DNA of 23,969 nucleotides, taken from a virus. Position 1 is the stretch's first letter. Every line of letters begins with the position of its first letter. The stretch is from the IMG/VR virus record IMGVR_UViG_3300001472_000161, positions 1 through 23,969 of that record; one strand, written 5' to 3'. Positions 1-19,519 of the stretch are shown piece after piece. The position numbers and the translations under genes are program-made. Below the pieces are notes generated by a model. It was not told the DNA's origin. It did no database searches and was given only the letters and a program-made list of their open reading frames with translations.

Positions 1-479
1 ATGCCTCTGCTAGATAGATAGCTCAACATGTTGTCTATACTTTTCTGTTCTGTGTCTGATAATATTCCTGTTGTATATTTTTCTAACCATGTGTCCAACG
101 GCTTAGTATTGTTTGGCAAATTCTTTCTGTTGAATGTTATAAACTTTTTCTTTTCATACTTAATATCCCTCTCCTCCTCACGCATGGCCTCTATTGCCAA
201 CTTACGTATGGTATCTTCAGGTATTCCGATGTAGCTCATGAACTGCCTCATCTTGTAGTTCAGTTTGCGTCCGATCACGTAACTTGCCTTGAAGCCACAA
301 TTGAAACAATGGTAACTCACAGTGCCGTCAGCACTAGTCATCAGTCCGCCACGTTTCTTTTTATCCGCAGTCTCTCCGTTGTGTACACAACAGGGTGCAT
401 TGAAACTTATCCAACCACTTGGAGTTTTTTTTCTACCCGCAGGCAGACTTGTCAGAATTGTATTCTGGATCAGGTTCAT
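1..479 (-). CDS. 61: DNA primase, T4 gp61-like (partial, N-terminal part)
   Basis: The gene runs off the left edge; about 159 N-terminal residues are visible. It matches the zinc-binding start of T4-type primases, which lay down RNA primers for lagging-strand synthesis with the gp41 helicase. Residues 18-34 hold an Lys-Thr-Pro-Ser-Gly-Trp segment followed by C30, C31 and H33, and the second half of the ribbon is YHCFNCGF with C58 and C61. The catalytic TOPRIM region lies beyond the window. The ATG at 479-477 comes 10 nt after the stop of the structural-type gene upstream, so the two may share a transcript. No good ribosome binding site is seen. The family call rests on the zinc motif and the T4-like context. 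Confidence 0.8.
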   Translation of the reverse strand, partial: MNLIQNTILTSLPAGRKKTPSGWISFNAPCCVHNGETADKKKRGGLMTSADGTVSYHCFNCGFKASYVIGRKLNYKMRQFMSYIGIPEDTIRKLAIEAMREEERDIKYEKKKFITFNRKNLPNNTKPLDTWLEKYTTGILSDTEQKSIDNMLSYLSSRG

Positions 480-489
480 AAACTATATT

Positions 490-1325: not shown

Positions 1326-1700
1326 ATGAATGAAATTTTTAACACACTAAGAGACAAATTTCCTTTCCTAAGTCTAATCAGAAAGGGCGATTTGGAGTAT
1401 GTGGGCATAGTGCAGAATGAGGACACAAACGTTATCAGTTTCTATGACTATGGCAGGCTTATGTTACCGCGGGACAAGATGCAGTTTTTGAAGTGCGGTG
1501 AGACATGGTGGCACGAATCCAATCGTAAATTACCAATTAATATATTCCTTAAGGGCGACTTCAGATATTTTCGTTCTACTTTGATTACCTTAAATTCTAA
1601 AGACGTAGAAATTGTACATGGTCCTACAGTCAGACTGTCTGACATTTCTAAAAAAAGAGTAAAGAGAAGAACAATCCAACTAGTTAGAAAACCAGTTTAG
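1326..1700 (+). CDS. Conserved phage protein of unknown function (124 aa)
   Basis: A soluble, basic 124-residue protein with no signal peptide, membrane segment or metal motif. It has the look of a conserved small protein of T4-like marine phages. A Trp-Trp pair with an adjacent His (near residue 58) and the segment Lys-Leu-Pro-Ile-Asn-Ile-Phe-Leu-Lys-Gly are its most distinctive parts, and the C-terminal 20 residues are strongly basic (KKRVKRRTIQLVRKPV), which would suit nucleic-acid binding. It is a lone plus-strand gene within a minus-strand block. Its stop is 1 nt from the stop of the convergent small ORF. The function is not known to me. Confidence 0.7.
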   Translation: MNEIFNTLRDKFPFLSLIRKGDLEYVGIVQNEDTNVISFYDYGRLMLPRDKMQFLKCGETWWHESNRKLPINIFLKGDFRYFRSTLITLNSKDVEIVHGPTVRLSDISKKRVKRRTIQLVRKPV

Positions 1701-1719: not shown

Positions 1720-1869
1720 ATCAGTAATATTAATACCACAAACTTTCTCAACATATTTCGTCAACGGACTATTAGGTTGATAAGATTTAAGTTCTGATGT
1801 TAATGATGTATTGCGATTGGATGTCTTACGTTTTTTTGGAAGTTTTTTCTTACGTTTCTGATGGTGCAT
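1702..1869 (-). CDS. Small Lys-rich protein (55 aa), unknown
   Basis: A 55-residue ORF beginning ATG-CAC-CAT and overlapping the end of the DnaE-like gene by 20 nt in another frame; an upstream in-frame GTG at 1887 would give 61 residues. The N-terminus is strongly basic (QKRKKKLPKKRKTSNR), and the rest is soluble and ends NITDPTKIK. It fills the space between the DnaE-like stop and the convergent gene ending at 1700, a packing typical of real phage genes. No ribosome binding site is obvious. The basic start suggests nucleic-acid contact, but no function can be assigned. It might alternatively be a C-terminal extension of the DnaE-like protein reached by frameshifting. Confidence 0.45.
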   Translation of the reverse strand: MHHQKRKKKLPKKRKTSNRNTSLTSELKSYQPNSPLTKYVEKVCGINITDPTKIK

Positions 1870-2440
1870 CAAAACTATATTTAGCACTGCTGATCAAATT
1901 CATCTGTACCACTATGGCTTGTGCATATGCCACGGCGTGTGATTTCTTAAAAAAATATGATCCATCTGTTGGTTTAGTCCACACCTCTTTCATAATGTCA
2001 ATCCAATCCTTATACATTAATTGACGCTTTGCAGGACGTATGATTGCTAACACAGCCGCAAGTTGTTCTATGGTCTTTGGCTCCAATTTAGACACTATAT
2101 TAAAATGACCATTCAGGTGAAAAAGGTTCTTTACTATGCTTGGATCTTTAAGCATGTCCCAGTCCGGCTCTTGTATCATTAGTTCAACAAGTTCCTGCTC
2201 TGATTTTACATCTTTGTATATGTTCACGTTTAAACAGTCTATCTTGAAGTAACCTCTGTCCTCTGCATTTTTGTAATCTAGAGAAGCATGTCTGGTTACA
2301 GGATGTTCTGGAACAGCATGAAAGTAAACACCAGTCTTATGTTTCTCAGATTTACCATCTTTGATCATAGATGCTGGTGTGTGTTTAAATAATTTTAATG
2401 TGTTGTCTCGATCAAAAAAATCTATGTCTACGTCAGGCAT
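1850..2440 (-). CDS. Miniature DnaE-like (Pol III alpha, family C polymerase) protein, 196 aa
   Basis: Several short blocks match the conserved core of bacterial DNA polymerase III alpha in the correct order. PDVDIDF at 2-8 corresponds to the motif holding the first two catalytic Asp (E. coli D401, D403). KHKTGVYF at 33-40 resembles the KHAGG region. YFKIDCL at 64-70 corresponds to KFDFLG with the third Asp (D555), here D68. LFHLNG at 106-111 resembles VFQLES, ending an IRPA block at 134-137 like the YRPGP region. KKSHAVAYA at 165-173 corresponds to NKSHSAAYA. PHP, tau-binding, OB and beta-clamp regions are absent, as are about 100 residues between the first motifs and about 130 before KSHAVAYA. 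A full enzyme is near 1,160 residues. The start is ATG in a TAATG overlap with the gene upstream, behind an AAGGAA ribosome binding site. Polymerase activity is not implied. Confidence 0.75.
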   Translation of the reverse strand: MPDVDIDFFDRDNTLKLFKHTPASMIKDGKSEKHKTGVYFHAVPEHPVTRHASLDYKNAEDRGYFKIDCLNVNIYKDVKSEQELVELMIQEPDWDMLKDPSIVKNLFHLNGHFNIVSKLEPKTIEQLAAVLAIIRPAKRQLMYKDWIDIMKEVWTKPTDGSYFFKKSHAVAYAQAIVVQMNLISSAKYSFDAPSET

Positions 2441-2673
2441 TAGTGTATTCTTCCTTTTTCCTTTTTACTGTGTTCGATAAACTTTTGTTTTGATCCTGGT
2501 TGTAATAGTTCGGCAACTTCAAGCATTGCTTTGTAACCGTCACTTTGTTTTGTTTTTAAGTCCATTTTTGGTAAGATAATTTTCCCAATAGAACCGTCTT
2601 CCTTGATAGTAATTGCAATATCACCATCTTCGAATTCTAAATTATCTGCAATTTGTAGATCAATCTTAGACAA
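2440..2673 (-). CDS. Conserved phage protein of unknown function (77 aa), TTG start
   Basis: A small soluble acidic-to-basic protein whose central segment (ITIKEDGSIGKIILPKMD, near 22-39) predicts a beta-hairpin; the C-terminus is basic. The start is TTG at 2673-2671, chosen because a strong Shine-Dalgarno GGAGG (2684-2680, within AAAGGAGG) sits 6 nt upstream and no ATG lies nearby. It overlaps the stop of the zinc-finger gene upstream by 8 nt and is coupled by TAATG to the DnaE-like gene downstream, suggesting co-translation with it. No known family is recognised. Confidence 0.65.
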   Translation of the reverse strand: MSKIDLQIADNLEFEDGDIAITIKEDGSIGKIILPKMDLKTKQSDGYKAMLEVAELLQPGSKQKFIEHSKKEKGRIH

Positions 2674-3349
2674 TCTTTGCCTCCTTTGCCGTATCCTGTA
2701 CCAACATAAGATCTGCTGGGTAACTTTTTAATTTACTTGGCCAGAAACTTGGGTTTATAAATTTTTCTATCATTTGTAATTGTTCGTCGTTAAAAGATTT
2801 TAACATCCTTTTCCCTGCACTGCAACCTAACAACAGCCATGGACTTATCTTTCCTTGCTGAATGTGTTGCACTGCTCTGTTGGTGTTTACAAGTCTAAAG
2901 TAGTCCGACCACTGTGCATTTTGTTCGTTTGCCCAATCCATCATTGTTGCTATGCTTCTTTGTAGTGCGGCCTCTACTGGTTCTGATTTCAACGCTTCTA
3001 TTAGGTACGCCTCATATAGGTCATCCCTTGCCCAATGATCCAGTTTGATCTTTGACTGTAGAACATAATCGATGTACCTTTCAGGATACAATGGGTTGAT
3101 ATGCATAATAAATCTACCAAACTTTACGAATGCGTTGTAGTATGAGCTTTTTACAAAGTCATCATATGTCTTTGGTTTAGAATTGTGTTGGTGTATCTGA
3201 TAGAATCTTTGGAACACCATGAACGCATTCACAACCCATTTCTCATCACGTTGCAGGTATCTTCTTTTAGGTTCGCACAGATGTACTTGTAGTGTGCGTT
3301 CTTTGGCAAATTCCTTGCCACAGTATGTGCATCTATTTGTCGTAGCCAT
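2666..3349 (-). CDS. C2HC zinc-finger phage protein, function unknown (227 aa)
   Basis: The N-terminus carries a compact zinc finger: C7-x2-C10, then H23 and C25, in CTYCGKEFAKERTLQVHLC, followed by a basic KRRY. The remaining ~200 residues are helical, with many Tyr and Trp (YYNAFVKFGRFIMHINPLYPERYIDYVL), and have no signal peptide or enzymatic motif that I can name. Its shape resembles a protein conserved in marine T4-like phages beside replication genes. It overlaps the probable gp62 gene upstream by 17 nt, so it is translated from the same message. A role in DNA or RNA contact during replication or transcription is plausible from the zinc finger, but unproven. Confidence 0.65.
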   Translation of the reverse strand: MATTNRCTYCGKEFAKERTLQVHLCEPKRRYLQRDEKWVVNAFMVFQRFYQIHQHNSKPKTYDDFVKSSYYNAFVKFGRFIMHINPLYPERYIDYVLQSKIKLDHWARDDLYEAYLIEALKSEPVEAALQRSIATMMDWANEQNAQWSDYFRLVNTNRAVQHIQQGKISPWLLLGCSAGKRMLKSFNDEQLQMIEKFINPSFWPSKLKSYPADLMLVQDTAKEAKIV

Positions 3350-5931: not shown

Positions 5932-7278
5932 CTAAAGTTTTATTATAATATGATCATGCCAATCCCAATTACTCGGTTGGTGATCACTATAATACAACTT
6001 TTTTGGAAGATTTTCAAGAAGTCTTTTTAGGTTATCTGTGCCTGTGGCATAATAACCACCACCAAGTGCTACCAACGATGCTTTTGGTTGAATTTTACTT
6101 TTGATTAGTGATCTTGGTATTCGATTCCTCACAAATATTATCTTGGTATTATCAGTTATCAGTTTGAACTGTTTACTCATTTGGTGTATTTCATACAGGT
6201 TTTCAAAGAACTCTTTGGATTTTTGATTGTCAAGCAAGTAAGTTCTTTCGCTGTTGAAACGCTCTAGATCCTTTTTGTAGATTGGTTCCTTCACATCAAA
6301 TCCCCAACTGCAATCATTCAATATGTCAATACCGTGCGCCTTGAAAGCATTTAACCATTCCCAAAAATTTTTCACATCGGCTTCCATGTGTATGTCACCA
6401 CTTACAGGCATTACCAATGGAAAGCAATTTAGTTCTACCAAACCTTTAACGACTTCATTTTTAGAAAAGGCTTTTGAATCTATCCACAATTTATGATATT
6501 TGTTGTGTGCTATCTTCTTTCCTATTTGCGTGTGTGCATCGACATCAATACCTTGCGTGGATATGTTTAGATTTTTTAAAGAATCAACCTGTTCCAATGC
6601 TGATTTATCTTTTAAATTTTCGTCCCAGTACTCTTGTAATGATTCCGGAGCATCACGTAAAATTATTTCTCCACCTATTAGATGTGCTGATGCTTGTCTG
6701 TGATTTATTATGTTATTTTTTATTTCTTCATAGTCTTTCAACAGGCTGTCATCTGTAAATTTGAAATCATATCTCGCCGCTATCAATGTGAGATAGTATG
6801 CTGTTACATCAGTGTGTAAGAACGTCCATTTCTTTGCCTCGCCATCATATTGACTGTACCCTGCTGGGAAGTCACGTGTATCTTTAAGACATCTTATTAA
6901 CTGTATGACTTTTTTGTTGTATGGAAATCTTAGTTCTATCTTGTCTATGTTGTCCTCGTCTGTGTATTTTTCAATGACTTTATCAAAACTTATTATCCTA
7001 AATTCCTCCTCATATTTTGGGTTATCAAGTAATGTCTTAATGTCCATTCCGTGTGCTTGGAACTTCGTAAGGTATCTTTTCAGTATTACCAGGGCTAAAC
7101 GTGCCTGCTTCTCAGTCCATGAATATTGTGCCTCTGCTAATGATTTCACCGTTTCATGATCCTTAGGATGAGGCTTTACTGTTGTATGTAGGGGAGTTGC
7201 CCACAAATAATCATTATATGCTAGTATTTTGAGTGCTTCGTTTATTGTTTTTGGTAAATCTGTGTGCATATTAGTCAT
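5932..7278 (-). CDS. Conserved phage protein with HARP-like segment, next to UvsW (448 aa)
   Basis: A 448-residue soluble protein with no Walker motif. Residues ~115-175 (FPYNKKVIQLIRCLK, then YDGEAKKWTF and a Thr-Asp-Val helix) follow the pattern of the HARP domain of SMARCAL1-type annealing helicases: Tyr, hydrophobic helix with K, YD-x3-K-x-WxF, then a helix. The C-terminal ~90 residues (TKIIFVRNRIPRSLIKSK, VALGGGYYATGTDNLKRLL) alternate strands and helices like a RecA-type lobe but show no nucleotide-binding motif. It is the first gene behind a strong sigma70-type promoter and lies 1 nt from uvsW. I infer a DNA-binding partner of UvsW; the HARP match is by eye and tentative. Confidence 0.6.
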   Translation of the reverse strand: MTNMHTDLPKTINEALKILAYNDYLWATPLHTTVKPHPKDHETVKSLAEAQYSWTEKQARLALVILKRYLTKFQAHGMDIKTLLDNPKYEEEFRIISFDKVIEKYTDEDNIDKIELRFPYNKKVIQLIRCLKDTRDFPAGYSQYDGEAKKWTFLHTDVTAYYLTLIAARYDFKFTDDSLLKDYEEIKNNIINHRQASAHLIGGEIILRDAPESLQEYWDENLKDKSALEQVDSLKNLNISTQGIDVDAHTQIGKKIAHNKYHKLWIDSKAFSKNEVVKGLVELNCFPLVMPVSGDIHMEADVKNFWEWLNAFKAHGIDILNDCSWGFDVKEPIYKKDLERFNSERTYLLDNQKSKEFFENLYEIHQMSKQFKLITDNTKIIFVRNRIPRSLIKSKIQPKASLVALGGGYYATGTDNLKRLLENLPKKLYYSDHQPSNWDWHDHIIIKL

Positions 7279-7809: not shown

Positions 7810-8514
7810 TATAGTTTCAAATTCAGCATAACTTATAACTTTACTATTACCAAGATCAGTACCAGTCTGTAAATTGTTTAGGTACTCTGGTGGACTATCA
7901 TGTACAACTGTGAAATTACAGTAAGGTCTCATCTTAAGTATATCTCTAAACTGTTTTAGCCAGCCCTCAAATATCTGATCATTGTGTCTTTCGCCGTAGT
8001 TGTTGGTATCCTGGTACATGTTGTTAAACTGGCCTTTGCCGTACTCTCTGAAGTCAAACCCCAACAGGTATATATTTTTATGTCCATGAACCGCCGCTGT
8101 CCAAAAGGCCGCGTTGCCAGAGATCCAATGAGGATTGTCTGGAATAAGATGTAACATCTCTTTGTGCCTGTTTACTTCAATAGCAGGTGTATAGTGAACG
8201 GTCTTCCGACCAACTTGATTATTACACATTTCTATAGTAATTTTACTGTCAACACTGAAAATAAAATCGGGCATGAAATCTCTGTAAAGAGCATTACATC
8301 CATATGTTTGTCCTGTCTCCTTGAGTCTATTGAGATCAAAATTTTTCCTTGAAGGACCATTTCCTATGCAGTAAGCGTTGCCTCGTGGTACTGCCTGCAC
8401 ATCGTCGGCAAACCATTTCATGTCTTTAGTGCGTTTACCGTTTTTGATAGTGATGTTCATACAGACTTCTTCGCCTTCGTATTTCTTCCATTCGATTGGA
8501 TTGATTATGGCCAT
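7789..8514 (-). CDS. GT42/MptE-like (sialyltransferase-fold) protein
   Basis: A 241-residue protein. GNGPS (51-55) followed by Tyr-Gly-Cys-Asn-Ala-Leu-Tyr (71-77) corresponds to the AGNGPSL and RCNQFY motifs of Campylobacter CstII-type sialyltransferases (GT42), where Asn residues hold CMP. A later block, ISGNAAF (131-137) leading to IYLLGFDF (148-155), matches the S-G-x4-A and I-Y-L-S-G-I-D-F region. H177 might stand for the catalytic His. The same Rossmann-like core occurs in MptE/DUF115 proteins, so sugar transfer is likely but the donor unproven. It ends the six-gene glycan transcript, sharing the ATGG junction with the gene upstream. Confidence 0.6.
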   Translation of the reverse strand: MAIINPIEWKKYEGEEVCMNITIKNGKRTKDMKWFADDVQAVPRGNAYCIGNGPSRKNFDLNRLKETGQTYGCNALYRDFMPDFIFSVDSKITIEMCNNQVGRKTVHYTPAIEVNRHKEMLHLIPDNPHWISGNAAFWTAAVHGHKNIYLLGFDFREYGKGQFNNMYQDTNNYGERHNDQIFEGWLKQFRDILKMRPYCNFTVVHDSPPEYLNNLQTGTDLGNSKVISYAEFETILTPSKA

Positions 8515-9383
8515 TATAGATATCTCTCTAGTAGCCTTTTCTTTATCCTAGTCCATGGTATGCCTTGTGCTATCTCGTCTTCAAACCATTCGGTAAATGC
8601 TAGTCTATTGGCCCAGTTTGATCTATCTGGCATTGTAGGATTATTGACAGTGGAGAAATCCTTATTACCCACTTCGTAACATAAACTTGCTTCTGATACA
8701 AACACAGGTATGCCATTTATCACTGCCTCCATGGCAGGGTTAGAACTATGGTTTACAACGGCCCAAGCATCTTTAAGAATGTCTTTGAAGTCTGTGTCAT
8801 CTATCTTACTGACATCTATTATAGGATTTTTAAGACTTACATTTGGATATTTCTTAACATCGAACCCTACGTTGTTTCTCGGATGCGGCCTTATCTGTAT
8901 TGGCCGATCAGTGTATTTTCTTATTTGCTGTACCTGTGATTCAAACCATGTCCTCATGTCCGGCATGCCTGCCCATTGTTCAGATGCATGGTGTTGGCCA
9001 AGCACTATAATGGTTTGTCCCCTTTGCTTCCATGGTTTGAATGTGTGCTTAAATAGATGCCATCTCTTGTCGTCTATATCTTGATTTGCAAAGTCTGCCT
9101 TTCTATTCACCCCGTTGATTGCAATCTTGAAACTTTTATTTCGTCGTAAACCGCCAACTTCTAGTACAATGACTGGTTTATTAGCCTGTCGGTATCTTTG
9201 CCATATCTGTTTGTAATTCCTCATCCTTCCAAGCCATAACACGCTCCAGATTACAGCCACGTCGGCATCGCTTGATTTATTAAGTATCACTTGATCTCCT
9301 GCGTCCTGTAAACTTTTAATGAATGCTTTGAATATAGGCTCCGAGTTCAGAGGCCCATGTTGTGTCCAAACTTCTATTTTCAT
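8514..9383 (-). CDS. KpsS/KpsC-like glycosyltransferase (paralog 1)
   Basis: A 289-residue GT-B-like C-terminal half of the capsule-polysaccharide (KpsC/KpsS-type) transferase family, which adds Kdo or related sugars. IRPHP (164-168) and HSSNPAMEAVINGIPVF (212-228) match the conserved RPHP and Ser-Ser-x4-Glu-x4-Gly-Ile-Pro-Val blocks of sugar-nucleotide binding. The last 45 residues (from PTMPDRSNW on) repeat a signature shared with three other genes in this window. It is translated from an ATGA overlap with the gene upstream. Length is shorter than KpsS (about 400). The acceptor and donor are unknown. Confidence 0.65.
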   Translation of the reverse strand: MKIEVWTQHGPLNSEPIFKAFIKSLQDAGDQVILNKSSDADVAVIWSVLWLGRMRNYKQIWQRYRQANKPVIVLEVGGLRRNKSFKIAINGVNRKADFANQDIDDKRWHLFKHTFKPWKQRGQTIIVLGQHHASEQWAGMPDMRTWFESQVQQIRKYTDRPIQIRPHPRNNVGFDVKKYPNVSLKNPIIDVSKIDDTDFKDILKDAWAVVNHSSNPAMEAVINGIPVFVSEASLCYEVGNKDFSTVNNPTMPDRSNWANRLAFTEWFEDEIAQGIPWTRIKKRLLERYL

Positions 9384-10282
9384 GTGCTAGACGGTACGTT
9401 TTTCCAGTAATCCACTGAGAATATATCTGCGGGTGCGTTTGGGTTGGCACGTAGATCGTTCTTCCCGCTTGTCCCAACTTTTTTACGTTTACCTTTCATG
9501 TGGTCCATGTACAATCCAAGTTCACTATTGACGAAAACATGATGTCCTTTTACTCCTATCCAATAACCTATGTCATTGACCTTTATGTTCTTCTCTTGCC
9601 TGTATTTTTTTGTTAGGTGCCAAAACACGTAACTGTCGTGCCATTCCAGAAGTTTGAATACTTCGTCTGTGACATAGAGTTTTTCCCAGTCGTTTACAAA
9701 ATTTTGTATCTCAGGATGTTTCATGTTATAACCAACAAACCCACATTCTGGGTATTTGCCGCCATCATTCAGTTTAGGATTTTCTCTACCCAGGTAAGTT
9801 ACCATTGTGTCTGAGGGTAATAATTTTTTAAAAAAGTTTATCGGCACGGGTCGAAAACTAAAAGTATCTGCGTCTATCCACACTACGTAGTCGTACTCCT
9901 TGCTGTTTCTTACACCATTTACAACACAGAATACTTTGTTTGCAAATCGGACGGCCGCCCAAAGGTATGACCCTTTGTTTTTATCCTTGCCACCTTTTAC
10001 TTGTAGTTCCGCAGGACGTCTTACTCCTCCTGGTATTTCATGTAGTTCTCCGTTTGCTACAGGATCGTCCTTGTGTTTGTTTTTGAACTTGAACAGTTCG
10101 GGTTCAGCAGTGTTTAAGTCTATCCATTGTATTCTCTCGTACTTACAGTCTGGTTTGGCTTCTTCGGCGTATACCACAATGTCGATTTCTTTTGGAAATT
10201 GCTCCGCCATGGATTCTATTCCTTTTTTTCCATATTGTTCCCAACTGCCTGGTTTATATGAAGTAATAACTTTTATTTTCAT
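9380..10282 (-). CDS. GT-A-fold glycosyltransferase
   Basis: A 300-residue protein of GT-A type. VVWIDADTFSF (133-143) holds the DxD motif (D137, D139) that binds the metal and sugar nucleotide. The N-terminus (MKIKVITSYKPGSW) forms the usual first strand, and a late WHDSYVFWHL block could serve acceptor contact. The ATG at 10282 is chosen because AGGAG sits 4 nt upstream, overlapping the asnB stop; a TTG 21 nt earlier is less likely. A GT8-like or other GT-A subfamily cannot be decided. It is the fourth gene in the minus-strand glycan transcript. Confidence 0.75.
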   Translation of the reverse strand: MKIKVITSYKPGSWEQYGKKGIESMAEQFPKEIDIVVYAEEAKPDCKYERIQWIDLNTAEPELFKFKNKHKDDPVANGELHEIPGGVRRPAELQVKGGKDKNKGSYLWAAVRFANKVFCVVNGVRNSKEYDYVVWIDADTFSFRPVPINFFKKLLPSDTMVTYLGRENPKLNDGGKYPECGFVGYNMKHPEIQNFVNDWEKLYVTDEVFKLLEWHDSYVFWHLTKKYRQEKNIKVNDIGYWIGVKGHHVFVNSELGLYMDHMKGKRKKVGTSGKNDLRANPNAPADIFSVDYWKNVPSST

Positions 10283-10289
10283 GTTACTC

Positions 10290-12029
10290 CTATTTACTTT
10301 CAAAATTCATGTTAAATTTATTTGCCCAATCTCTCATTATCCATGCAGGTATGGCAGACTTTTGGGTTTCGTTGTTTCTTAAAACTATGTCTTTTAAACA
10401 ATCTTTTCTGGCAATCTGATTTTGATAAAAATTTTTTGTTACTTGCTCGTTTTGTATCCATCCTTTGACGGGCGCCGTCCATCCTGTCTTGTGTTTTGAT
10501 ATAATCTCATTTGGAAATATATTTCGATATGCCTTTTTACTTAAAAGTTTCGTATCTGATTTATTGATTCCTATTTTTTCATTGGACGGAATACTCAAAC
10601 CATATTTCATAAATTTCTTCGTGGCTAACGGGAAACGTCCTTCCATGCTAAATGCCATACCGTATGTGTCGTTTCTTATAAAAAATTCTTCCGGAACTTG
10701 TGTTACGCAGTCTAATGACATATAGGAATTTACAGGATCAGCATCGTTATACAGTTCCATTGGAAGATTTTTTATTAAATATTTTGTAAGATCGTTTCTG
10801 CTAATTGGATAATGAGAGACTAGGATTGGTCTTTTAATTCTGTTCATCCATTGTTCAACCAACTGTGTCCAATTAGTCACATTCTGATTACGCAATTTCC
10901 AATACTTTGGATAGCCACCAAGCACTTCGTCTCCCATATCACCGGCTAGTGTGACCACTATCCCGTCCTCTGATAAAAATTTATTAGTGTAATAATACAT
11001 GGCCATAGATGGATTGTACACAGGTTGCTCCATAAAATAGATGCTTTTATCCCAGCAGTCTTTGACCAATTGAGGAGTCATTGTGACAACTTTATGATTG
11101 AACTTAAACTGTTCTGCCAGCATTAGTGCTTTGGAATGATCGTCATTGTGATCATCCTCACGCCACACTATGTTTGGTTCCATTTTATTTGTGTAGGTGT
11201 TTGTGGTGTCGTGCAGTTTACTGTGTTCGTACGCCACCATGCCACTGTCAAGGCCTCCACTTAGGAATATACCTATCTTCCTACGTCCTATGCTACACAT
11301 CTTCACGCTTTCTCTGGTAATGTGTCTAAACTCTTCTTCGTCAAACTTATGCTTGTTTGTTGCAACTATAAGATTTCTTTTTTTATTTTTTATTTTTTTA
11401 TTGGCAACGTCATACACTATTGTTTCACCGCTCAAAAGTTTCTTTACATTTGAAAAGAAAGTGTTTTCTGTAACGTTTACACCAACGTGCGCCATGCAAC
11501 TGAAAGCCAATGGATCAATATTTCTTGAGCCTTGGACATGGTCAAGCATGCCTTTGATTTCACTGCCAAATATTAGTCCTTGTTTTATTTCGGCGTAGTA
11601 CAACGGTTTAATTCCTGCGTGGTCCCGCGACAGCCATAGTTCTTGATTTTGTTTTTTGTAATATGCAAACCCATGCATAGAATCTATCTCATCAGTGAAA
11701 TCTAGTCCGAACATGTCCAATCCCCATGCCAGTAATTCTGTATCGCAACCAGTCTCTCCTACAAACCCTTTTTCGCTGTACTTGTCTCTAAGTTCGTAGT
11801 AATTGAATATTTCTCCATTGTAAATGAGATAATTCCCCGCAGGAGTTTTCCAGGGCTGGATTGAATTATTAGGATGTCCCATTATTGACAGAAGATTGTG
11901 TCCTAGTGTGAGATTGTTGTCAGGTGATGACCATACCTTTGACCCATCTGGTCCTCTATGACTACAGGCAGTGATGTAGTCTTGTATAAGTTTTGGATTA
12001 TTATCGGTAATTCCGTAAATTCCGCACAT
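10290..12029 (-). CDS. asnB: Asparagine synthetase (glutamine-hydrolysing), AsnB-type, probable sugar-acid amidotransferase
   Basis: A 579-residue two-domain amidotransferase. Nucleophile Cys2 opens the N-terminal glutaminase domain; the oxyanion pair N71-G72 and D96 are in place, but the residue matching E. coli R49, which holds the glutamine carboxylate, is Leu46. The synthetase domain has the PP-loop SGGLDS (257-262) and the later GDMGDEVLGGYP block. AsnB normally makes asparagine; in polysaccharide clusters such enzymes often amidate sugar carboxylates, which is the likelier role here. Marine T4-like phages are known to carry asnB. It starts in a TAATG overlap with the gene before it. Confidence 0.85.
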   Translation of the reverse strand: MCGIYGITDNNPKLIQDYITACSHRGPDGSKVWSSPDNNLTLGHNLLSIMGHPNNSIQPWKTPAGNYLIYNGEIFNYYELRDKYSEKGFVGETGCDTELLAWGLDMFGLDFTDEIDSMHGFAYYKKQNQELWLSRDHAGIKPLYYAEIKQGLIFGSEIKGMLDHVQGSRNIDPLAFSCMAHVGVNVTENTFFSNVKKLLSGETIVYDVANKKIKNKKRNLIVATNKHKFDEEEFRHITRESVKMCSIGRRKIGIFLSGGLDSGMVAYEHSKLHDTTNTYTNKMEPNIVWREDDHNDDHSKALMLAEQFKFNHKVVTMTPQLVKDCWDKSIYFMEQPVYNPSMAMYYYTNKFLSEDGIVVTLAGDMGDEVLGGYPKYWKLRNQNVTNWTQLVEQWMNRIKRPILVSHYPISRNDLTKYLIKNLPMELYNDADPVNSYMSLDCVTQVPEEFFIRNDTYGMAFSMEGRFPLATKKFMKYGLSIPSNEKIGINKSDTKLLSKKAYRNIFPNEIISKHKTGWTAPVKGWIQNEQVTKNFYQNQIARKDCLKDIVLRNNETQKSAIPAWIMRDWANKFNMNFESK

Positions 12030-13012
12030 TAGTAACCTAACTTTTCCTTGAACCTTTTAAACACTGTGCCATCTCTAATTTCTTTTTCTGTCCATTGCTT
12101 GTAGCCAATGTTGCACACCCATTGATCTCTGTCAGGATATTCGGGTGTTTCTATGTTGTTAAGATCTTTGTTTGCCACGTCCCAGCAGATTGCAAGGTCT
12201 GATGTTACAAAAGTGGGGATACCTCTTACGCAACTGTCAATACTAGCAGTGCTGTTATGCGTAATTACTGCGTGGCAGTTTGCTATTGCTTCTTGGAAAT
12301 TGAATCTGTAGTATTTCTTCTCATCTCCACTGAAGAACTTTTGTCCTATTATGACTTTGCAGTCCTCTGGAAATTCTTTTACACGTTCTTCAATGTGGGC
12401 CATATGATTTGGGTGTGGACGTATCAAGAACTGTCTGTCCGTGATTGGTCTGATCTTTTCGTATACACCATTGAACCATTCTATTGGATCCAACTCGTCC
12501 ATACTCCAGTTGTCTTTAGGCTGTAGAACAAAAAGTATTGGATCATCTTGATTGGATTTCCTCCATGGTTGGTATTTTATATTCCACATCTTCTTCATCA
12601 TTTCCCAACGATCGGGTGGCGAATTTTCACTTAAAAAGTCTCCATTATTCATGGGTGAATAGAGGCTGACTCGCCAATGGTGTTTAGGATGTGTGATAGT
12701 GTTGCCAAAACTTGATAGTATGCCTCCGTCAAAAGTTATTATGTGTATTCCTTTTTTCTTTGCACGTTCTACTAGATCTCTTCTTCTACCTTTGGTGTGG
12801 TGCATCTGATTTGATCCGCCATAGCCAAACATACAGCCTATCCTTGCTGTTGGCTCCATCTCGTTTAATGTCCACTCTCCGGTCTTGGTCTCATTAACCA
12901 TGATTGGATTATCACCACAAGCACGTATGCCTTCTGCCATGTGTTGCAACAGTTCGTAACTTGCCCCACGTCTACGGTCTTTTACAGTCCTTCTAAATAT
13001 TTCAACGTCCAT
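12029..13012 (-). CDS. KpsS/KpsC-like glycosyltransferase (paralog 2)
   Basis: A 327-residue member of the same capsule-type family as the genes at 8514 and 13002. Visible elements are a Gly-rich FGYGGSNQMHHTKG segment (62-75), FDGGILS (94-100), IRPHP (197-201), and HNSTASIDSCVRGIPTF (252-268). The conserved Glu of the last block is Asp here. The tail (PEYPDRDQW and GYKQWTEKEIRDG) is the signature shared by all four paralogs. It starts 11 nt inside the gene upstream and ends in TAATG with asnB. Donor and acceptor are unknown. Confidence 0.65.
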   Translation of the reverse strand: MDVEIFRRTVKDRRRGASYELLQHMAEGIRACGDNPIMVNETKTGEWTLNEMEPTARIGCMFGYGGSNQMHHTKGRRRDLVERAKKKGIHIITFDGGILSSFGNTITHPKHHWRVSLYSPMNNGDFLSENSPPDRWEMMKKMWNIKYQPWRKSNQDDPILFVLQPKDNWSMDELDPIEWFNGVYEKIRPITDRQFLIRPHPNHMAHIEERVKEFPEDCKVIIGQKFFSGDEKKYYRFNFQEAIANCHAVITHNSTASIDSCVRGIPTFVTSDLAICWDVANKDLNNIETPEYPDRDQWVCNIGYKQWTEKEIRDGTVFKRFKEKLGY

Positions 13013-13814
13013 CTAATATACCTAATGCCCATCCGTTTCTAAATTCTTCCTGAGTGAACTGACCATATGCTAGACTGTGGAACACAGGTTCTCTGTCAGC
13101 ATAGATGGGAGTTTCAATTTTACTAAAGTTATTTTCACATATCTGTCCACAAGGGTTTTCAAAATTGCTAAAGCAAGGTACACCATTGTGTAATGCCTTA
13201 ATGGTCATGGAACTATTAAATGTGACCACCGCGTGTACTTGATCCCACTCGAATGGTTTTTCGGGTTGCTTGTTGTCACTTGGCCCTGGCAACATTCTTC
13301 CCTGCTCGTCTAAATAACTTTTTGGATTGTAAGGTTTTTCTCTTATAATAATTTGTCTTTCTGTATTTGCTTTTAATACCTGTAAAGTGTCTTCCAGCCA
13401 GGTCTGTGCATTGAAGTGTAAAGCCATACTGTGGCTAGGTGGTACCACTAGCACATATTTTCCATTTTTGTGGTATGGCAAAATTGGATCACCTTTGTAA
13501 TATTTTTTGTATCTGTCGTCTGGCCTTTGTTCGTGGCTGGTCTTTACATGTTCGTTCTTGACACATCTCATCCAATAAGGTGTTGCTCGGCTTTCTCCCC
13601 AATAGGGCCTGTCGATGTAATAAAAATCTTTCTTGTTTTCTTTCGCCCAGTTGTAAACTATGTTGGTACCTCTCAACACTCCCATAAATGCAACTTTTTC
13701 GCAGTCTTCCTTCATTGCATTTTGGTAATTTACTATTTGTGCCGTGGAGCCTCTTGCAATTGATTCAATATATTTTTCAGTGTTGGCTCGTTCCGTTCGT
13801 ACGCAGTAAAACAT
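13002..13814 (-). CDS. KpsS/KpsC-like glycosyltransferase (paralog 3)
   Basis: A 270-residue member of the KpsS/KpsC-like group in this window. IREKP (157-161) replaces RPHP, and FNSSMTIKALHNGVPCF (199-215) stands where paralog 1 has its Ser-Ser-x4-Glu block, with Lys for Glu. ADREPVFHSLAYGQFTQEEF near the end is the shared tail signature. It most resembles the gene at 16364-17176: both have 270 residues, a PYWG/PYFG segment, a YWMRCVKN or YWRICKN block, and R-x-KP instead of RPHP. It is the first gene of the six-gene minus-strand glycan transcript, behind a TATAAT promoter. Confidence 0.6.
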   Translation of the reverse strand: MFYCVRTERANTEKYIESIARGSTAQIVNYQNAMKEDCEKVAFMGVLRGTNIVYNWAKENKKDFYYIDRPYWGESRATPYWMRCVKNEHVKTSHEQRPDDRYKKYYKGDPILPYHKNGKYVLVVPPSHSMALHFNAQTWLEDTLQVLKANTERQIIIREKPYNPKSYLDEQGRMLPGPSDNKQPEKPFEWDQVHAVVTFNSSMTIKALHNGVPCFSNFENPCGQICENNFSKIETPIYADREPVFHSLAYGQFTQEEFRNGWALGILDGR

Positions 13815-13832
13815 AATCGTAAATAGTTATCG

Positions 13833-14588
13833 ATGAGAAACTTGGTTATTCAATATTATATAGACATTCAAAAATATTCGCAACCTGGTTTTAACAATCT
13901 AAAACCAAGTCCTATGGAAACATATAGCAGACATAGTTTCCAAAAATATTGTGCAAAGTACAATTTAGAATATCAAAGAATTACCGAACCAAAATTAGCA
14001 TTCAAACACCCTACCTGGGAAAGATTTGATCTTTGGGTGGACCGTAGTTGGTGGGAAAAATATGATCAGATCATGTACGTTGATAGTGATGTGATCGCTT
14101 TACCACATGCCGGAAACATATTTCAGGAATACCCAGAGATAAATCAAAAGTTAAAAACCTGCTACTATCCTAAGTTCAGAGGCGCAACACCAGATGGTGC
14201 AAAATATAACCAAAGGGTCAATCCGTTAGCCGACAACTATACCGGAGAACAGATCATGCAACGATTTGTTCAGCCTGGGGTAATGATGTTAAACAAAGTG
14301 TCTACAGAATTTATGCTTCCTTGGGTCAGCAAATACAAAGAAGTCACCGACGACAGGATAGACGACGGCATGTTTCTTAATGGTTGTATAGTAGACAGCA
14401 AAGTTCCTTTGTTAGATATGCAAAGAATGTATAATCATAAAAATAACGGCGAGAAATTTGATTATAACAAGGTTAATTTTTTACATTGTGCCGGCGGCAA
14501 GAAACACAAAAGGAATGTTAAGATTTGGTCCAAGTTGAAAGATATATTTCCTGATGTTGAGGTAGACTTGTCTGGGCTAGAAGTCTAA
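13833..14588 (+). CDS. GT-A-fold glycosyltransferase (GT8-like)
   Basis: A 251-residue protein. IMYVDSDVIAL (80-90) carries the DxD motif (D84, D86) preceded by a Tyr-Val strand, as in GT8-like and related GT-A enzymes. Downstream, a DDGMFLN block and the segment VNFLHCAGGKKHKRN near the C-terminus fit the late His-containing motif of those families. It is a single plus-strand gene: it diverges from the transcript starting at 13814 with only 18 nt between start codons and its 3' end overlaps the GT61 gene by 4 nt. Specificity is unknown. Confidence 0.72.
   Translation: MRNLVIQYYIDIQKYSQPGFNNLKPSPMETYSRHSFQKYCAKYNLEYQRITEPKLAFKHPTWERFDLWVDRSWWEKYDQIMYVDSDVIALPHAGNIFQEYPEINQKLKTCYYPKFRGATPDGAKYNQRVNPLADNYTGEQIMQRFVQPGVMMLNKVSTEFMLPWVSKYKEVTDDRIDDGMFLNGCIVDSKVPLLDMQRMYNHKNNGEKFDYNKVNFLHCAGGKKHKRNVKIWSKLKDIFPDVEVDLSGLEV
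13855..13883 (-). promoter_or_regulatory. Sigma70-type promoter for the minus-strand glycan transcript
   Basis: TTGCGA (13883-13878) and a perfect TATAAT (13860-13855) lie 17 nt apart on the minus strand, inside the 5' end of the divergent plus-strand transferase gene. The expected start leaves about 34 nt before the ATG at 13814. It would drive the six overlapping genes down to 7789. Confidence 0.45.
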
Positions 14589-15667
14589 TCTAAAATTTTT
14601 ATTAAGTTTGGTATGTTTATCTTAAGATTTACCATGTCCTTGGCCTTCTTATTTTTTGGTTTTGTTAATTGTAGTTTTTCAGTTTCACAAAGTATTACAT
14701 GATGCTTGAGTCCAAGATGATGCGATAGGCTTGGATAAACTTTTTTGTGCATGAATGCTTTGTGTGTCAATTCATAAACTTTTGTTTTTGGCCTGCACCA
14801 TAAAAGGTTTGTTAATCCAGCACCATGGGGAGAAACTATATGCGTGGCTTCAGCGAAAGTTTTTACTTGCTCCTCTATCGACATATTTTCTAAAGTCACT
14901 GTCTCCCAGCCTTTCAACGCCATAACAAGTTCGTCTTGATTCTTTATGTTCCTGTTTTCGGCATCTTTCCTTGTAATAAAAATTTTACGAGTAGGTTTTA
15001 TATCATCCTTGGCTACAAGGTTTGCTAGATGTCTTATCCACTTCGGCATGTGAGGAGTCAGGATTCCATCTTGGTAGTTGCTCATACTTGGCACAATGAG
15101 GTGAGCAAAACGCCAAGTTTCTTTTTTGGGTATTACTTTGTATTGCAAATCAGGGAAAAACACCTTACAAATCCTGTCGAAGTATTTGCTAGGGTTGGCT
15201 AGAATGAAAGTGTACTTTTCAAAATTGGTGCTCCATCTTTTTTCAATGAGTCGGAACTTGGATACGATGTCTATCCAAATGTGCCAAGGGTTCTCAGCAC
15301 TGTACTCGTCGATAGGCAACCAAACATATTTCCAAGTGCCATTGAACTGTTGTGTGATCGGTGGCATCGTGATATCTACTTTTTCACCCCAAGATGTAAA
15401 GATATCATGCACCTTGTGTGGTTTGTCACGATATTTTGAAATCAAAGGCCATACATGATTTGTAATTAATTTCCTGTCTTCAGTAACCAATACTGGTAAG
15501 CAGTTCACACTGCAATTTGAAAAATCTGCCACAAATGTTGGTAAAGTTGAATAGGTGTTTATAATTCCAAAACTTTTAAAATTAAGAGCATACTGGTAAG
15601 ATTGATCAATGATGTCCCATTGGTTAGTGAAAAATTTAATATCTTGTATGTTTTGAACCGTTTGCAT
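14585..15667 (-). CDS. GT61-type glycosyltransferase (DUF563)
   Basis: A 360-residue protein whose C-terminal half carries the signature of the GT61/DUF563 family: the ITRKDAENR segment (231-239) and HGAGLTN (281-287), followed by KVYELTHKAF. The family includes xylosyl- and other transferases acting on polysaccharides and glycans, including bacterial capsular examples. The N-terminal half has no recognised motif and no signal peptide. It is a one-gene minus-strand unit between convergent and divergent plus-strand genes. An AT-rich 29-nt gap precedes the next start codon used at 15697. Substrate unknown. Confidence 0.78.
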   Translation of the reverse strand: MQTVQNIQDIKFFTNQWDIIDQSYQYALNFKSFGIINTYSTLPTFVADFSNCSVNCLPVLVTEDRKLITNHVWPLISKYRDKPHKVHDIFTSWGEKVDITMPPITQQFNGTWKYVWLPIDEYSAENPWHIWIDIVSKFRLIEKRWSTNFEKYTFILANPSKYFDRICKVFFPDLQYKVIPKKETWRFAHLIVPSMSNYQDGILTPHMPKWIRHLANLVAKDDIKPTRKIFITRKDAENRNIKNQDELVMALKGWETVTLENMSIEEQVKTFAEATHIVSPHGAGLTNLLWCRPKTKVYELTHKAFMHKKVYPSLSHHLGLKHHVILCETEKLQLTKPKNKKAKDMVNLKINIPNLIKILD

Positions 15668-15690
15668 ATCTCTTATAATTAATGTATAAT
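15662..15690 (+). promoter_or_regulatory. Possible promoter for the plus-strand glycan transcript
   Basis: The AT-rich gap between divergent genes contains two TATAAT boxes on the plus strand, at 15674-15679 and 15685-15690. The second is 17 nt from TTGCAT (15662-15667), but would start transcription at or near the ATG at 15697, giving a leaderless message. The first pairs with TTGAAC (15653-15658) at only 15 nt. Either could serve; the AT-rich base composition makes chance matches likely. Confidence 0.3.
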
Positions 15691-15696
15691 TATCTT

Positions 15697-16389
15697 ATGA
15701 CAGTTTCCAGATTGTTTCTTAATGGTTGTTCTTTTTTGACCTTCAGGCCACGGCAGGGTGTGGATACACACTGTGGAATAGAATTTGCTAAGAAAATGAA
15801 ACTTGATATTGCGGTAAATCTAGCAGGCGGTGGCAGGGGAAATAAAAGAACAAGTTTTACAACAAAAGTATGGTGCGAACGGAATCCTGAGATAGCAAAA
15901 GACTGCTTTTTCCTTATAGGCTCAAGTTCTGGCATACGGGTTGATTATCCAACAAATGACGGTTACAAAAAAGACAAGTTTCCTAGCATAGACACTACCT
16001 GGAGAACCTACAGTCCAAACAAAGATCTGCCCTGCCAGTCCTTTTGGAAATACCTGATGAGAACTGGTGCCGACCTTGATCAAATGATACAGATTGAATC
16101 TTTAGATAATATTTTAAATTTGCAATATTATTTCGAATACAAAAAATATCCTTATTTGATATACCATACAATATCAGATCCAGTAGTCAAAAATTCTGAT
16201 ATAAAATTATTATATGACAAAGTAAACAAAAAAAGATTTTTTAGACAAGACTCAAGCCATGTAGATTATGTCAAAGAAAATAATCTAACGATTTCGGAAA
16301 GTGACGAACACCCAAACACAGAAGGACACTTACAGTGGGCCACACTACTCAAAGAACATACAGATGCTAACAATCTACTCACCATTTAA
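15697..16389 (+). CDS. SGNH/GDSL-like hydrolase
   Basis: A 230-residue protein opening RLFLNGCSF, in which S12 fits the block I nucleophile of the SGNH family. GGGRGN (44-49) and IGSSSG (74-79) resemble the glycine and block III regions. DEHPNTEGHLQWA near the C-terminus supplies the D-x-H of block V. Such enzymes remove or add acyl groups, often O-acetyl groups, on glycans. A longer frame starts at the ATG at 15682, but 15697 begins directly at the conserved region. The gene leads a chain of six genes, and its end overlaps the next by 26 nt. Confidence 0.68.
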   Translation: MTVSRLFLNGCSFLTFRPRQGVDTHCGIEFAKKMKLDIAVNLAGGGRGNKRTSFTTKVWCERNPEIAKDCFFLIGSSSGIRVDYPTNDGYKKDKFPSIDTTWRTYSPNKDLPCQSFWKYLMRTGADLDQMIQIESLDNILNLQYYFEYKKYPYLIYHTISDPVVKNSDIKLLYDKVNKKRFFRQDSSHVDYVKENNLTISESDEHPNTEGHLQWATLLKEHTDANNLLTI

Positions 16390-17176
16390 TAATAGGAACA
16401 GCAAAGCATGGGAAGTTTTCAACGGCGTTGAGAAGTCTTGGCCTGATCAGATTACAAAATTAGACAATGCAGTAGAACAAGATCCTCAGATTAATTCTAT
16501 GTTTTGGGGTTTTGTTGGCAATAACAGAAAAATGGTAAAAAAGTTGGAAGCACGGAATCATCAATTTTGGTTCACAGACACCCCATACTTTGGAAGATTT
16601 GAAAACAACAATTTAAAACCTAACAACCATTACTGGCGTATTTGCAAGAACGCCATACACGTGCCATACATAAAGAATTGCAAGGCAGATAGGTTTGAAA
16701 AGTTTGGAATGAAAATAAAGGCGCCAAACTTTGCTGGCAAATACATATTAGTTTGTCCAAGTTCTGAGGGGATCCACAACTATCTAGACAGACCAAATTG
16801 GACAAACGAAACCATGGAACAGATTAAGAGATACACGGACAGGCCTATCAAACTTCGACACAAGCCTAGGGGCAGGGGTACATCAGGACCGAGTGAGGCA
16901 AAGGTACCCCTATCCGAGGATCTAAAAGAGGCCTGGTGTGTTGTGACGAGTTGTTCTATATCGGCGGTGGAGGCCATCTGTGAGGGAATACCTGTGTTCT
17001 GTGACAACAGAAGTTTTGCTGTAGATGTTGGAAATGTAGAACTTTCAGACATAGAGAATCCCTATTATGGCGGGCCTGAGCCATGGTTGTACAGTTTAGC
17101 ATATCAACAATTCACTCCTGAAGAATTCGAAGACGGTACAGCAGTTGAGATATTAATAGACAATGGAATATTGTAA
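16364..17176 (+). CDS. KpsS/KpsC-like glycosyltransferase (paralog 4)
   Basis: A 270-residue protein from the ATG at 16364; an open frame reaches back to 16301, but that would run far into the hydrolase gene. LRHKP (164-168) stands where other paralogs have RPHP, and SCSISAVEAICEGIPVF (196-212) keeps the Glu and Gly-Ile-Pro-Val of the family. GGPEPWLYSLAYQQFTPEEF is the shared tail. Its closest relative here is the minus-strand gene at 13002, also 270 residues. It overlaps the hydrolase gene by 26 nt and meets the methyltransferase in TAATG. Confidence 0.62.
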   Translation: MLTIYSPFNNRNSKAWEVFNGVEKSWPDQITKLDNAVEQDPQINSMFWGFVGNNRKMVKKLEARNHQFWFTDTPYFGRFENNNLKPNNHYWRICKNAIHVPYIKNCKADRFEKFGMKIKAPNFAGKYILVCPSSEGIHNYLDRPNWTNETMEQIKRYTDRPIKLRHKPRGRGTSGPSEAKVPLSEDLKEAWCVVTSCSISAVEAICEGIPVFCDNRSFAVDVGNVELSDIENPYYGGPEPWLYSLAYQQFTPEEFEDGTAVEILIDNGIL

Positions 17177-17874
17177 TGCCAAAATTAAAGAGTTATGATA
17201 CAGATAGTTTTAGTTTTCCTATAGGAGGCAAGTCTATTATGTTTGCAAATGTAAAAGGACAGAGGACCTACATAAAAAATAGAATGGACAGATTAATGAC
17301 TAAAGAACCAGAGACAATAAAATGGATCAATACCTTTGATAATGACAGTGTGTTCTTTGACATTGGTGCCAACATCGGTATATACACACTTTATAGTGCA
17401 ATGACACGTAACAATATTGTGTATTCGTTCGAGCCACATGCGGCAAGTTACAAGAATTTACTCGACAGTATTAATTTGAATAAACTTCAAAACTGCCAGG
17501 CATTTTGCATAGCACTAAGTGATAAAATTGCCATGTCGTCTATAAGCGTCAAGAACATGCATGAGGGAGTAGCAGACAATATAGTGGGAGAGCGTGGCGA
17601 ATACTACCATGGATGCACAGAAATAGATCTTGATTTTTTAGTTGATAAAGGAATATTACCACAGCCTGATCATCTTAAAATTGACGTAGATGGATTTGAA
17701 GACAAGGTTTTAAACGGATCATCAACCACACTGCAGAAATGCAAAAGTCTACTTGTTGAAATTGATAATAAGCATGTGAACATGGTGAACAAATTGCAAG
17801 AGTTAGGACTGGTTTTGCAATCTAAACACAAACGTAATGAAGAAGAACACAACTACATATTTAAAAATGCCTAA
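17176..17874 (+). CDS. FkbM-family SAM-dependent methyltransferase (1)
   Basis: A 232-residue class I methyltransferase of FkbM type. Motif I is FDIGANIG (61-68), the acidic loop after beta-2 is FEPH (85-88), and KIDVDGFE (168-175) with a following VLNG is the family's signature late block. FkbM-type enzymes O-methylate sugars and other hydroxyls, and they are common in marine phage glycan clusters. It starts in TAATG with the transferase before it and overlaps the second FkbM gene by 8 nt. The acceptor is not known. Confidence 0.85.
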   Translation: MPKLKSYDTDSFSFPIGGKSIMFANVKGQRTYIKNRMDRLMTKEPETIKWINTFDNDSVFFDIGANIGIYTLYSAMTRNNIVYSFEPHAASYKNLLDSINLNKLQNCQAFCIALSDKIAMSSISVKNMHEGVADNIVGERGEYYHGCTEIDLDFLVDKGILPQPDHLKIDVDGFEDKVLNGSSTTLQKCKSLLVEIDNKHVNMVNKLQELGLVLQSKHKRNEEEHNYIFKNA

Positions 17875-18496
17875 GATTGAAAAAATCAATGGCTTTTGGG
17901 TACCAAGCAATGACGTGCATTTAGATCAATGGAAAGACGGCAAACCGTTTACACAAAATAAATGTTTATTAAAATTTATAGAATATTGTGAAAGCGAAAA
18001 TAAAAAATTTAATCATATTTTAGATATAGGTGCATGGGTAGGCACTTGGAGCATGGCAATGAATAAATTTTGTGGCAGGGTTGTTGCATTTGAACCGGAT
18101 ACTGTTCATTATGAATGCTTGGTAAAAAATGTAGGCGCCGATATAGAAACACACCAGTTGGCCGTTGGCGCTGAACAAAAAATGATTTCATTATCCGAAG
18201 ATGATTTTACACAAAGCAAAAGAGTTGTAGGTGCTGGGACAATACCCATGATAACAATAGATAGTTTAGGTCTAGATGATGTGGATATGATCAAGATCGA
18301 TGTTGAAGGTCTCGAAATGGAAGTGCTTAAGGGGGCAGTTGAAACCTTGTCAAACGTACAGTACTTGATGATTGAATTGAACAACAACACCAAAAAATAC
18401 GGTAGTAATAATTTTGAAGTTGAAAAATTTATTAGTTCCTTAGGTTTCAAAGTTCTTATCGAACACTGGCCTGATAAAATTTTTTATCGGGTGTAA
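17867..18496 (+). CDS. FkbM-family SAM-dependent methyltransferase (2)
   Basis: A 209-residue second FkbM-type methyltransferase: ILDIGAWVG (51-59), FEPD (75-78) and KIDVEGLE (143-150) with VLKG. The ATG at 17867 is preferred; an in-frame ATG at 17837 would add ten residues inside the first enzyme. It differs enough from its neighbour that the pair is not a recent duplication, so they may methylate different hydroxyls. The end of the gene contains an AT-rich near-palindrome (18470-18491). A gap of 18 nt follows before the epimerase. Confidence 0.85.
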   Translation: MPKIEKINGFWVPSNDVHLDQWKDGKPFTQNKCLLKFIEYCESENKKFNHILDIGAWVGTWSMAMNKFCGRVVAFEPDTVHYECLVKNVGADIETHQLAVGAEQKMISLSEDDFTQSKRVVGAGTIPMITIDSLGLDDVDMIKIDVEGLEMEVLKGAVETLSNVQYLMIELNNNTKKYGSNNFEVEKFISSLGFKVLIEHWPDKIFYRV

Positions 18497-18514
18497 TACA
18501 AATTAAATATTAAT

Positions 18515-19519
18515 ATGAAAATTTTCATTACAGGTGTAGCAGGATTTTTAGGATCTCATCTTGCTGATCTTATGTTGTCACAAGGGCATGAAGTCGCTGG
18601 TAATGACAACATGATTGGTGGTTATACAGATAACGTGCCTCAGGATGTGCAATTCCATCAGGTAGACTGTTGCAATCTAGAGAACATGACTAAAGCCATG
18701 GAGGGGTGTGACATAGTGTATCACACTGCCGCCACCGCATATGAAGGGCTGTCTGTTTTTTCACCTGTGCTTGTTACACGGAATATTTTTGAAGCCTCTG
18801 TCACCACTATTACAGCGGCCATAAGAAACAAAGTAAAACGTATTGTATATTGTTCCAGCATGGCCAGATACGGCCATCATGATGTGTTGCCATACAAGGA
18901 AACATATGAGTGTCGTCCCCAAGATCCATATGGTATAGCCAAAAAGGCAGGGGAAGATGTTCTACGTAACTTGTGTGAGACCCATGGAGTTGAGTATGTA
19001 ATAGCAGTGCCTCACAACATAGTTGGACCAAGGCAGAAGTATGACGATCCTTTTAGGAATGTAATGAGCATCATGCTCAATAGAATGTTACAAGGCAAGC
19101 AACCTATAATATACGGTGACGGCAAGCAAAAAAGATGTTTCAGTTACATTGATGATTGTCTATACTGTTTAAACGCTCTAGCATTTAACGATAATGTGGT
19201 TGGTGAAGTAATAAACATAGGCCCTGACGAAGAACCAATTACCATCAACGAATTAGCAGAAGCGTGTTCTAACGAAACAGGCATCAACCTAGAGCCCATA
19301 CATCATAAAGACAGACCCAAAGAAGTCAAACTTGCCACTTGTTCATCAGATAAAGCACGTAAACTTCTTGACTACAAAACATCTACTAACATGAGACAGG
19401 CAGTCAAAAAGACCGCTGAATACATTAGGACACGTGGCACTAAAAAATTCCAGTATCACCTGCCCCTCGAAATAGTAAACGACATCACTCCAGAAACTTG
19501 GAAAAATAAATTGATATGA
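18515..19519 (+). CDS. NAD-dependent sugar-nucleotide epimerase/dehydratase (extended SDR)
   Basis: A 334-residue extended short-chain dehydrogenase. The NAD-binding motif TGVAGFLG (6-13) opens the Rossmann fold. Catalytic Ser115 lies in YCSSMARYG, and Y139-x3-K143 is in DPYGIAK. Late substrate-binding elements include NIVGPRQ and a block with DGKQKRCFSYIDDC, as in UDP-glucose and UDP-GlcNAc 4-epimerases and GDP/dTDP-sugar dehydratases. It would convert one nucleotide sugar to another for the transferases of this cluster. Which sugar cannot be decided. It shares ATGA with the next gene. Confidence 0.88.
   Translation: MKIFITGVAGFLGSHLADLMLSQGHEVAGNDNMIGGYTDNVPQDVQFHQVDCCNLENMTKAMEGCDIVYHTAATAYEGLSVFSPVLVTRNIFEASVTTITAAIRNKVKRIVYCSSMARYGHHDVLPYKETYECRPQDPYGIAKKAGEDVLRNLCETHGVEYVIAVPHNIVGPRQKYDDPFRNVMSIMLNRMLQGKQPIIYGDGKQKRCFSYIDDCLYCLNALAFNDNVVGEVINIGPDEEPITINELAEACSNETGINLEPIHHKDRPKEVKLATCSSDKARKLLDYKTSTNMRQAVKKTAEYIRTRGTKKFQYHLPLEIVNDITPETWKNKLI

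Follow-up and report, generated by a model that had tools for sequence, protein, structure and literature searches.

In cyanobacteria, the alpha subunit of DNA polymerase III (Pol III alpha; DnaE) is encoded on two genes, and the chain, which is broken at a site other than the one described below, is rejoined by an intein. Split inteins are mentioned in PMC3919608, and computational work has already described, in "group 2.2" jumbo phages, a minimal Pol III alpha that is split (Iyer et al., 2021, Viruses 13:63, PMC7824862); passages of that paper assign Atu_ph07 to this group, remark that Pol III domains are otherwise absent from the carriers (a remark on the carriers, which we do not count as defining the protein), and propose that the halves reconstitute a catalytic enzyme. 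In addition, a truncated Pol III alpha was noted in two papers, as gp316 of Atu_ph07 and as CBB_328 (172 amino acids, aa) of phage CBB. Here we analyze a 23,969-nucleotide stretch of viral DNA (IMG/VR record IMGVR_UViG_3300001472_000161, positions 1 to 23,969; hereafter the window), which contains an open reading frame (ORF) of 196 aa at 1850-2440 (reverse strand, ATG start at 2440). We propose, with a probability of roughly 0.82, that this gene is the C-terminal half (C-half) of a phage-specific two-gene minimal Pol III alpha, whose N-terminal half (N-half) is a separate gene; the two halves would dock and rebuild the catalytic palm.

Compared with the system of Iyer et al. (2021), as set out in its passages on Pol III, the window ORF is likewise a stand-alone C-half that carries the Mg2+-binding aspartates and the template-binding region; the N-half, with the NTP-binding (GS) motif, is likewise on a separate, distant gene (in the 196.6-kb marine contig G117 and in 11 of 11 isolates); and a family B DNA polymerase is co-encoded (PF00136 was found in all seven carriers tested, G117 and six others). 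Unlike the carriers in those passages, contigs of the window's own clade also encode a 563-aa DnaE without a PHP domain, and the carriers here, next to jumbo phages (>200 kb), include a 141-kb Alishewanella phage and G117 (possibly an incomplete contig). The concept of a split Pol III alpha is already known, and the same model was published independently (PMC7824862); new, as far as we have checked, are the wide marine distribution, the window clade as one of the marine carriers, its adjacent compact DnaE, the 141-kb carrier, the conservation counts over the full family, and the structural models. The literature searched contained no experimental work on either half.

The C-terminal half encoded in the window

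The ORF and its motifs (PDVDIDF, HKTG, FKID, LFHL, IRPAK, and KKSHAVAYA) are exactly where a preliminary description, made from the letters of the window, had placed them. Its translation matches PHROG 11778 ("DNA polymerase") over the full length (E = 5e-65) and, weakly, the DnaE-type PHROG 405 (E = 8e-6). The Pfam scan of the 196-aa protein returned no domain other than DNA_pol3_finger, a weak match for the single sequence (E = 0.004, under the gathering score), which the XacN1 relative does reach. A family profile was needed for the comparison with PDB, where single-sequence phmmer found only chance matches to MutH: with the profile, nine of the ten sequences matched were Pol III alpha (best E = 0.002). 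The AlphaFold model (predicted local distance difference test, pLDDT, 88.7) has Pol III DnaE or PolC as its top 15 structural matches (Z 6.4-9.7; for example, 8.6 on 2hnh and 9.7 on PolC 3f2b), and the next, unrelated entry scores Z 3.6. The ORF is homologous to bacterial Pol III alpha, as had been proposed, and the resemblance is not due to chance.

Residues 1-196 of the model align with E. coli alpha 400-794, leaving about half of that range unoccupied. Since the structural match starts at alpha 400, D3 and D5 of PDVDIDF (codons at 2426-2434, reverse strand, as are all motifs given here) correspond to E. coli D401 and D403, and hhalign pairs K66 and D68 (FKID; codons of K66, I67, and D68 at 2237-2245) with K553 and D555 (KFD); the three catalytic aspartates named in the preliminary description are therefore correctly placed. 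HKTG (residues 34-37; 2330-2341) is the counterpart of the DnaE HAGG segment, and EKHKTGV is aligned by hhalign with SKHCGGI of the compact 563-aa DnaE. In the fingers, IRPAK (residues 134-138; 2027-2041) corresponds in hhalign to DnaE FRPGP, and KKSHAVAYA (residues 165-173; 1922-1948) corresponds in the PDB profile match to NKSHSAAYA. Among 204 unique C-halves, 13 positions never vary: D3, D5, D7, H34, P44, K66, D68, W94, R135, P136, K138, H168, and Y172. Strong purifying selection, also anticipated, is evident in a comparison with 30 close relatives, in which synonymous differences have reached saturation (median pS 0.70) but the protein is still ~90% identical, giving a median ratio of nonsynonymous to synonymous differences (pN/pS) of 0.095. 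We rejected a degenerate remnant on the invariance of the active-site residues and this low ratio.

The C-half shares its fold, its three catalytic palm aspartates, and its fingers motifs with bacterial DnaE and PolC, but lacks much of the rest. It opens at the DxD strand, with its first residue matching alpha 399, and there is no GS-motif half-palm upstream; the GRGS sequence that the chain lacks is found on the separate N-half protein. The thumb, PHP, HhH, OB, clamp, and tau regions are also missing. Between IRPAK and KKSHA the C-half has ~22 profile positions, compared with ~110 residues in DnaE, so that the RRAMGKK segment (E. coli 709 onward) is gone, as part of a deletion of ~90 residues from the fingers. 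The preliminary view of a self-contained palm and fingers core thus has to be given up, because half of the palm is on a second protein in the same genomes; a stand-alone mini-polymerase was rejected likewise, the GS half-palm being absent from the ORF and its start.

With the C-half as query, tblastn found 63 phage records at 35-56% identity, nearly all of them jumbo phages of the T4 superfamily, including RaK2, PBECO4/121Q, GAP32, CBB, PA5oct/Paride, Atu_ph07, Phosso, XacN1, SCTP-2, and Vibrio 2.275.O, together with the 141-kb Alishewanella phage. Scans of IMG/VR for the family each gave at least ~570-600 confirmed contig stretches. The split minimal Pol III alpha is common in marine T4-like phages.

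The N-terminal half and its co-occurrence with the C-terminal half

The gene reported as gp316 and CBB_328 is distinct from the C-half gene, and Atu_ph07 carries both. The CBB_328 protein, which ends ...GLGRGSSVSSYCLYLIGLHLVDSIKYELDVNEFLKW*, amounts to the N-terminal half-palm of Pol III, GS motif included, and stops just short of the DxD strand. N-halves are ~155-210 aa long and end at alpha residue 393, whereas the C-half starts at 399. The match of the N-half family to PF07733 (E = 5e-12 to 2e-8) is confined to positions 16-95 of the 260 in that profile, and its profile match to DnaE covers residues 320-392; the hhalign alignment of the family with E. coli alpha (E = 2e-6) ends at FERFLNPE. 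All 142 unique N-halves have an invariant GxGRGS, and 115 of them stop directly after EF[LF][KR]. They are full-length matches to PHROG 11127, which, like PHROG 11778, is labeled "DNA polymerase"; neither label hints at two halves of one enzyme. The N-half model (pLDDT 91.8) aligns with alpha 281-393 at Z 10-12 (10.0 on 2hnh and 11.0 on 4jom), and the top 11 structural entries are all Pol III, followed by one at Z 3.1. The N-half match (alpha 281-393) and the C-half match (alpha 400-794) are adjacent, which makes them complementary halves of one palm.

No fusion of the two was found among the 142 unique N-halves and 204 C-halves. Intein-like tails, in contrast to the cyanobacterial split DnaE, were not observed, with most N-halves ending at the break and the C-half beginning there. 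Residues 1-78 of the N-half (L236:7983-8504) are confidently modeled, yet lie outside all listed Pol III matches; judging from the model, these N-terminal ~78 residues may be a phage-specific docking domain.

Both halves are present in 11 of 11 isolate genomes tested (the Alishewanella N-half is divergent, E = 1e-19) and in 11 of the 12 contigs that reach 196 kb or more, one of which is from the window's own clade. The genes are far apart, for example 34 kb in CBB and RaK2 and ~180 kb in Atu_ph07; shorter contigs mostly have one half only, as expected for unlinked genes. In the smallest isolate carrier, Alishewanella phage Slicko01 (141 kb; L004 / L274), the N-half is 11 kb and gp44 is 1.5 kb from the C-half.

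The window record (25 kb) is too short to show a distant N-half; contigs of the window type (≥70% identity) showed none either, ending at most 35 kb downstream, which is too soon. For this clade, the N-half was found in G117, whose C-half shares 82% identity with that of the window; most of the G117 genes flanking the C-half are 65-85% identical to the window's conserved neighbors, and its family B polymerase is an open frame of ~890 aa. In the search for the partner, 210 N-half loci were ranked by tetranucleotide signature, and the top rows belonged to one N-half group, which was used for the scan that yielded G117. The abundant "MLMKTD" group of N-halves was rejected as the partner, with tetranucleotide correlations of r 0.55-0.74 (compared with 0.84-0.98 for window-clade contigs) and no genes shared with the window clade at ≥75% identity.

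The proposed enzyme and alternative explanations

In the proposed enzyme, the two chains would meet at a natural loop of alpha, between residues 393 and 399, and together complete one Pol-beta-like palm sheet. On the N-half, the GS helix would bind the incoming nucleotide through its triphosphate; on the C-half, the three aspartates would coordinate two Mg2+ ions, and R135, K138, K166, and H168 of the fingers would contact the nucleotide or the template. The result would be an active two-metal nucleotidyltransferase that aids the replisome. Since the thumb is missing, as are the PHP, clamp, and tau sites, a non-processive enzyme would be expected rather than a processive replicase, working beside the phage family B polymerase. 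Among the roles suggested in the preliminary description, a minimal nucleotidyltransferase fits best, although as a two-protein enzyme and not as the single protein envisaged there.

B. subtilis DnaE extends RNA primers for PolC. This analogy, and the places of the genes near primase, helicase, and clamp loader, tentatively suggest, as our preferred guess, a short-patch helper, which might, for example, extend gp61 RNA primers before hand-over, or repair gaps. An active enzyme formed by the halves would mean that a replicative-type polymerase palm can be put together from the products of two genes, and would show in minimal form what C-family catalysis requires. The family is abundant in IMG/VR and conserved in laboratory-tractable phages of E. 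coli, Klebsiella, and Pseudomonas, so its function can be tested now.

Several points weigh against this reading. Docking is deduced from complementarity and co-occurrence, and the models are of single chains. The C-half has lost the thumb and the RRAMGKK segment of the fingers, and this loss may impair template-directed synthesis; a search for a third gene with the missing fingers, using PF17657 on 16 genomes, is of low sensitivity and gave only the C-half (in two genomes) and one compact DnaE. Gene neighborhood is what points to primer extension or gap filling. Finally, one 199.8-kb contig has the N-half without the C-half, probably because the contig is a fragment.

The strongest alternative is that the assembled halves are a nucleotidyltransferase but not a DNA polymerase, acting on RNA ends, proteins, or small molecules, or making a nucleotide signal. 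The halves keep a complete Pol-beta-type site (the GS motif, the three aspartates, and the KxD lysine) without the thumb and the RRAMGKK segment, and a family B polymerase is already at the phage's disposal. We nevertheless consider this alternative rather unlikely, because the DnaE fingers motifs IRPxK, KKSHAxxYA, and LFHL are conserved, and because the genes lie beside primase, helicase, and clamp loader and not beside RNA-repair or defense genes.

A further alternative is specific to the window clade, in which split and unsplit C-family enzymes occur side by side. Every window-clade contig that is long enough encodes the compact 563-aa DnaE 4.5-6 kb downstream of the C-half; for example, at L124:12966-14657 it is 4.4 kb downstream, past the window edge. 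It is preceded by primase, helicase, and an endonuclease-III-like gene. The protein has a complete palm of its own, with a GRGS-like HMTRGSAGSS, PDVDIDF, KVD, and the fingers motif YRRAFAKK; it lacks an N-terminal PHP-sized region and has a C-terminal extension that looks OB-like by eye. Its nearest phage relative is in a 484-kb uncultured phage (37%). The compact DnaE was not found in the tested isolates with both halves or in the other contigs tested; none was found in G117, which begins too near the C-half to reach the expected site.

This distribution would suit a window-clade C-half that is a partner or regulator of the compact DnaE, instead of or besides the N-half. We regard such a partnership as improbable: the palm of the compact DnaE is complete by itself, the N-half is also present in the window clade, and the C-half invariants are unchanged in clades without the compact DnaE. 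The compact DnaE was also considered as the supplier of the missing half in this clade, a candidate weakened by the N-half in G117. If the two-gene enzyme forms, the window clade could have a three-polymerase replisome, which we offer as a doubtful but possible extension: a family B replicase, the compact DnaE without a PHP domain, and a mini Pol III heterodimer with a two-protein palm. Primer extension or gap filling could then be the dedicated task of the split polymerase, which would be the smallest of the C family and would work only when both chains form the active site.

Least probable of all is a protein without catalysis that has a structural or regulatory role, or that acts as the decoy for host Pol III partners raised in the preliminary description: the small size of the C-half and the absence of its thumb, PHP, clamp, and tau regions would fit, but the catalytic residues, unexpectedly for a decoy, are 100% invariant down to ~35% identity, as is the GS motif of the N-half, and the known epsilon (PHP) and beta-clamp sites of alpha lie outside the retained region 400-794.

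Gene neighborhood and other genes in the window

In most carriers, the neighbors of the C-half are a UvsW-type helicase, small genes, and an opposite-strand gene of ~120 aa, followed mostly by the gp61 primase and the gp41 helicase, which agrees with the coupling to replication genes suggested earlier; the N-half is usually a few genes away from the gp44 clamp loader. In the window, the opposite-strand neighbor is at 1326-1700 (forward strand; PHROG 11637), and a similar-sized opposite-strand gene is at or beside the C-half in all phages viewed. Upstream of the C-half, at 2666-3349 (reverse strand), is a gene whose 227-aa product bears a C2H2-like zinc finger at its N terminus and matches PHROG 11058 (function unknown); it is conserved in the window clade and 81% identical in G117. 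We treat both genes as context, outside the enzyme.

Elsewhere in the window, a primase gene of the gp61 type, with a Zn-ribbon, appears by eye to start within positions 1-480 (reverse strand) and to run off the window edge (compare L124:9782-10798). A 448-aa protein is encoded at 5932-7278 (reverse strand), between UvsW and a gene island; it has no PHROG match and a weak Pfam match to DUF7400 (E = 0.05). The island itself, at 8514-21531, is a dense run of glycosyltransferase-, amidotransferase-, FkbM-methyltransferase-, and NAD-epimerase-like genes (by eye) that breaks up the replication genes, and it holds several paralogous proteins, for example those at 8514-9383, 12029-13012, 13002-13814, and 16301-17176.
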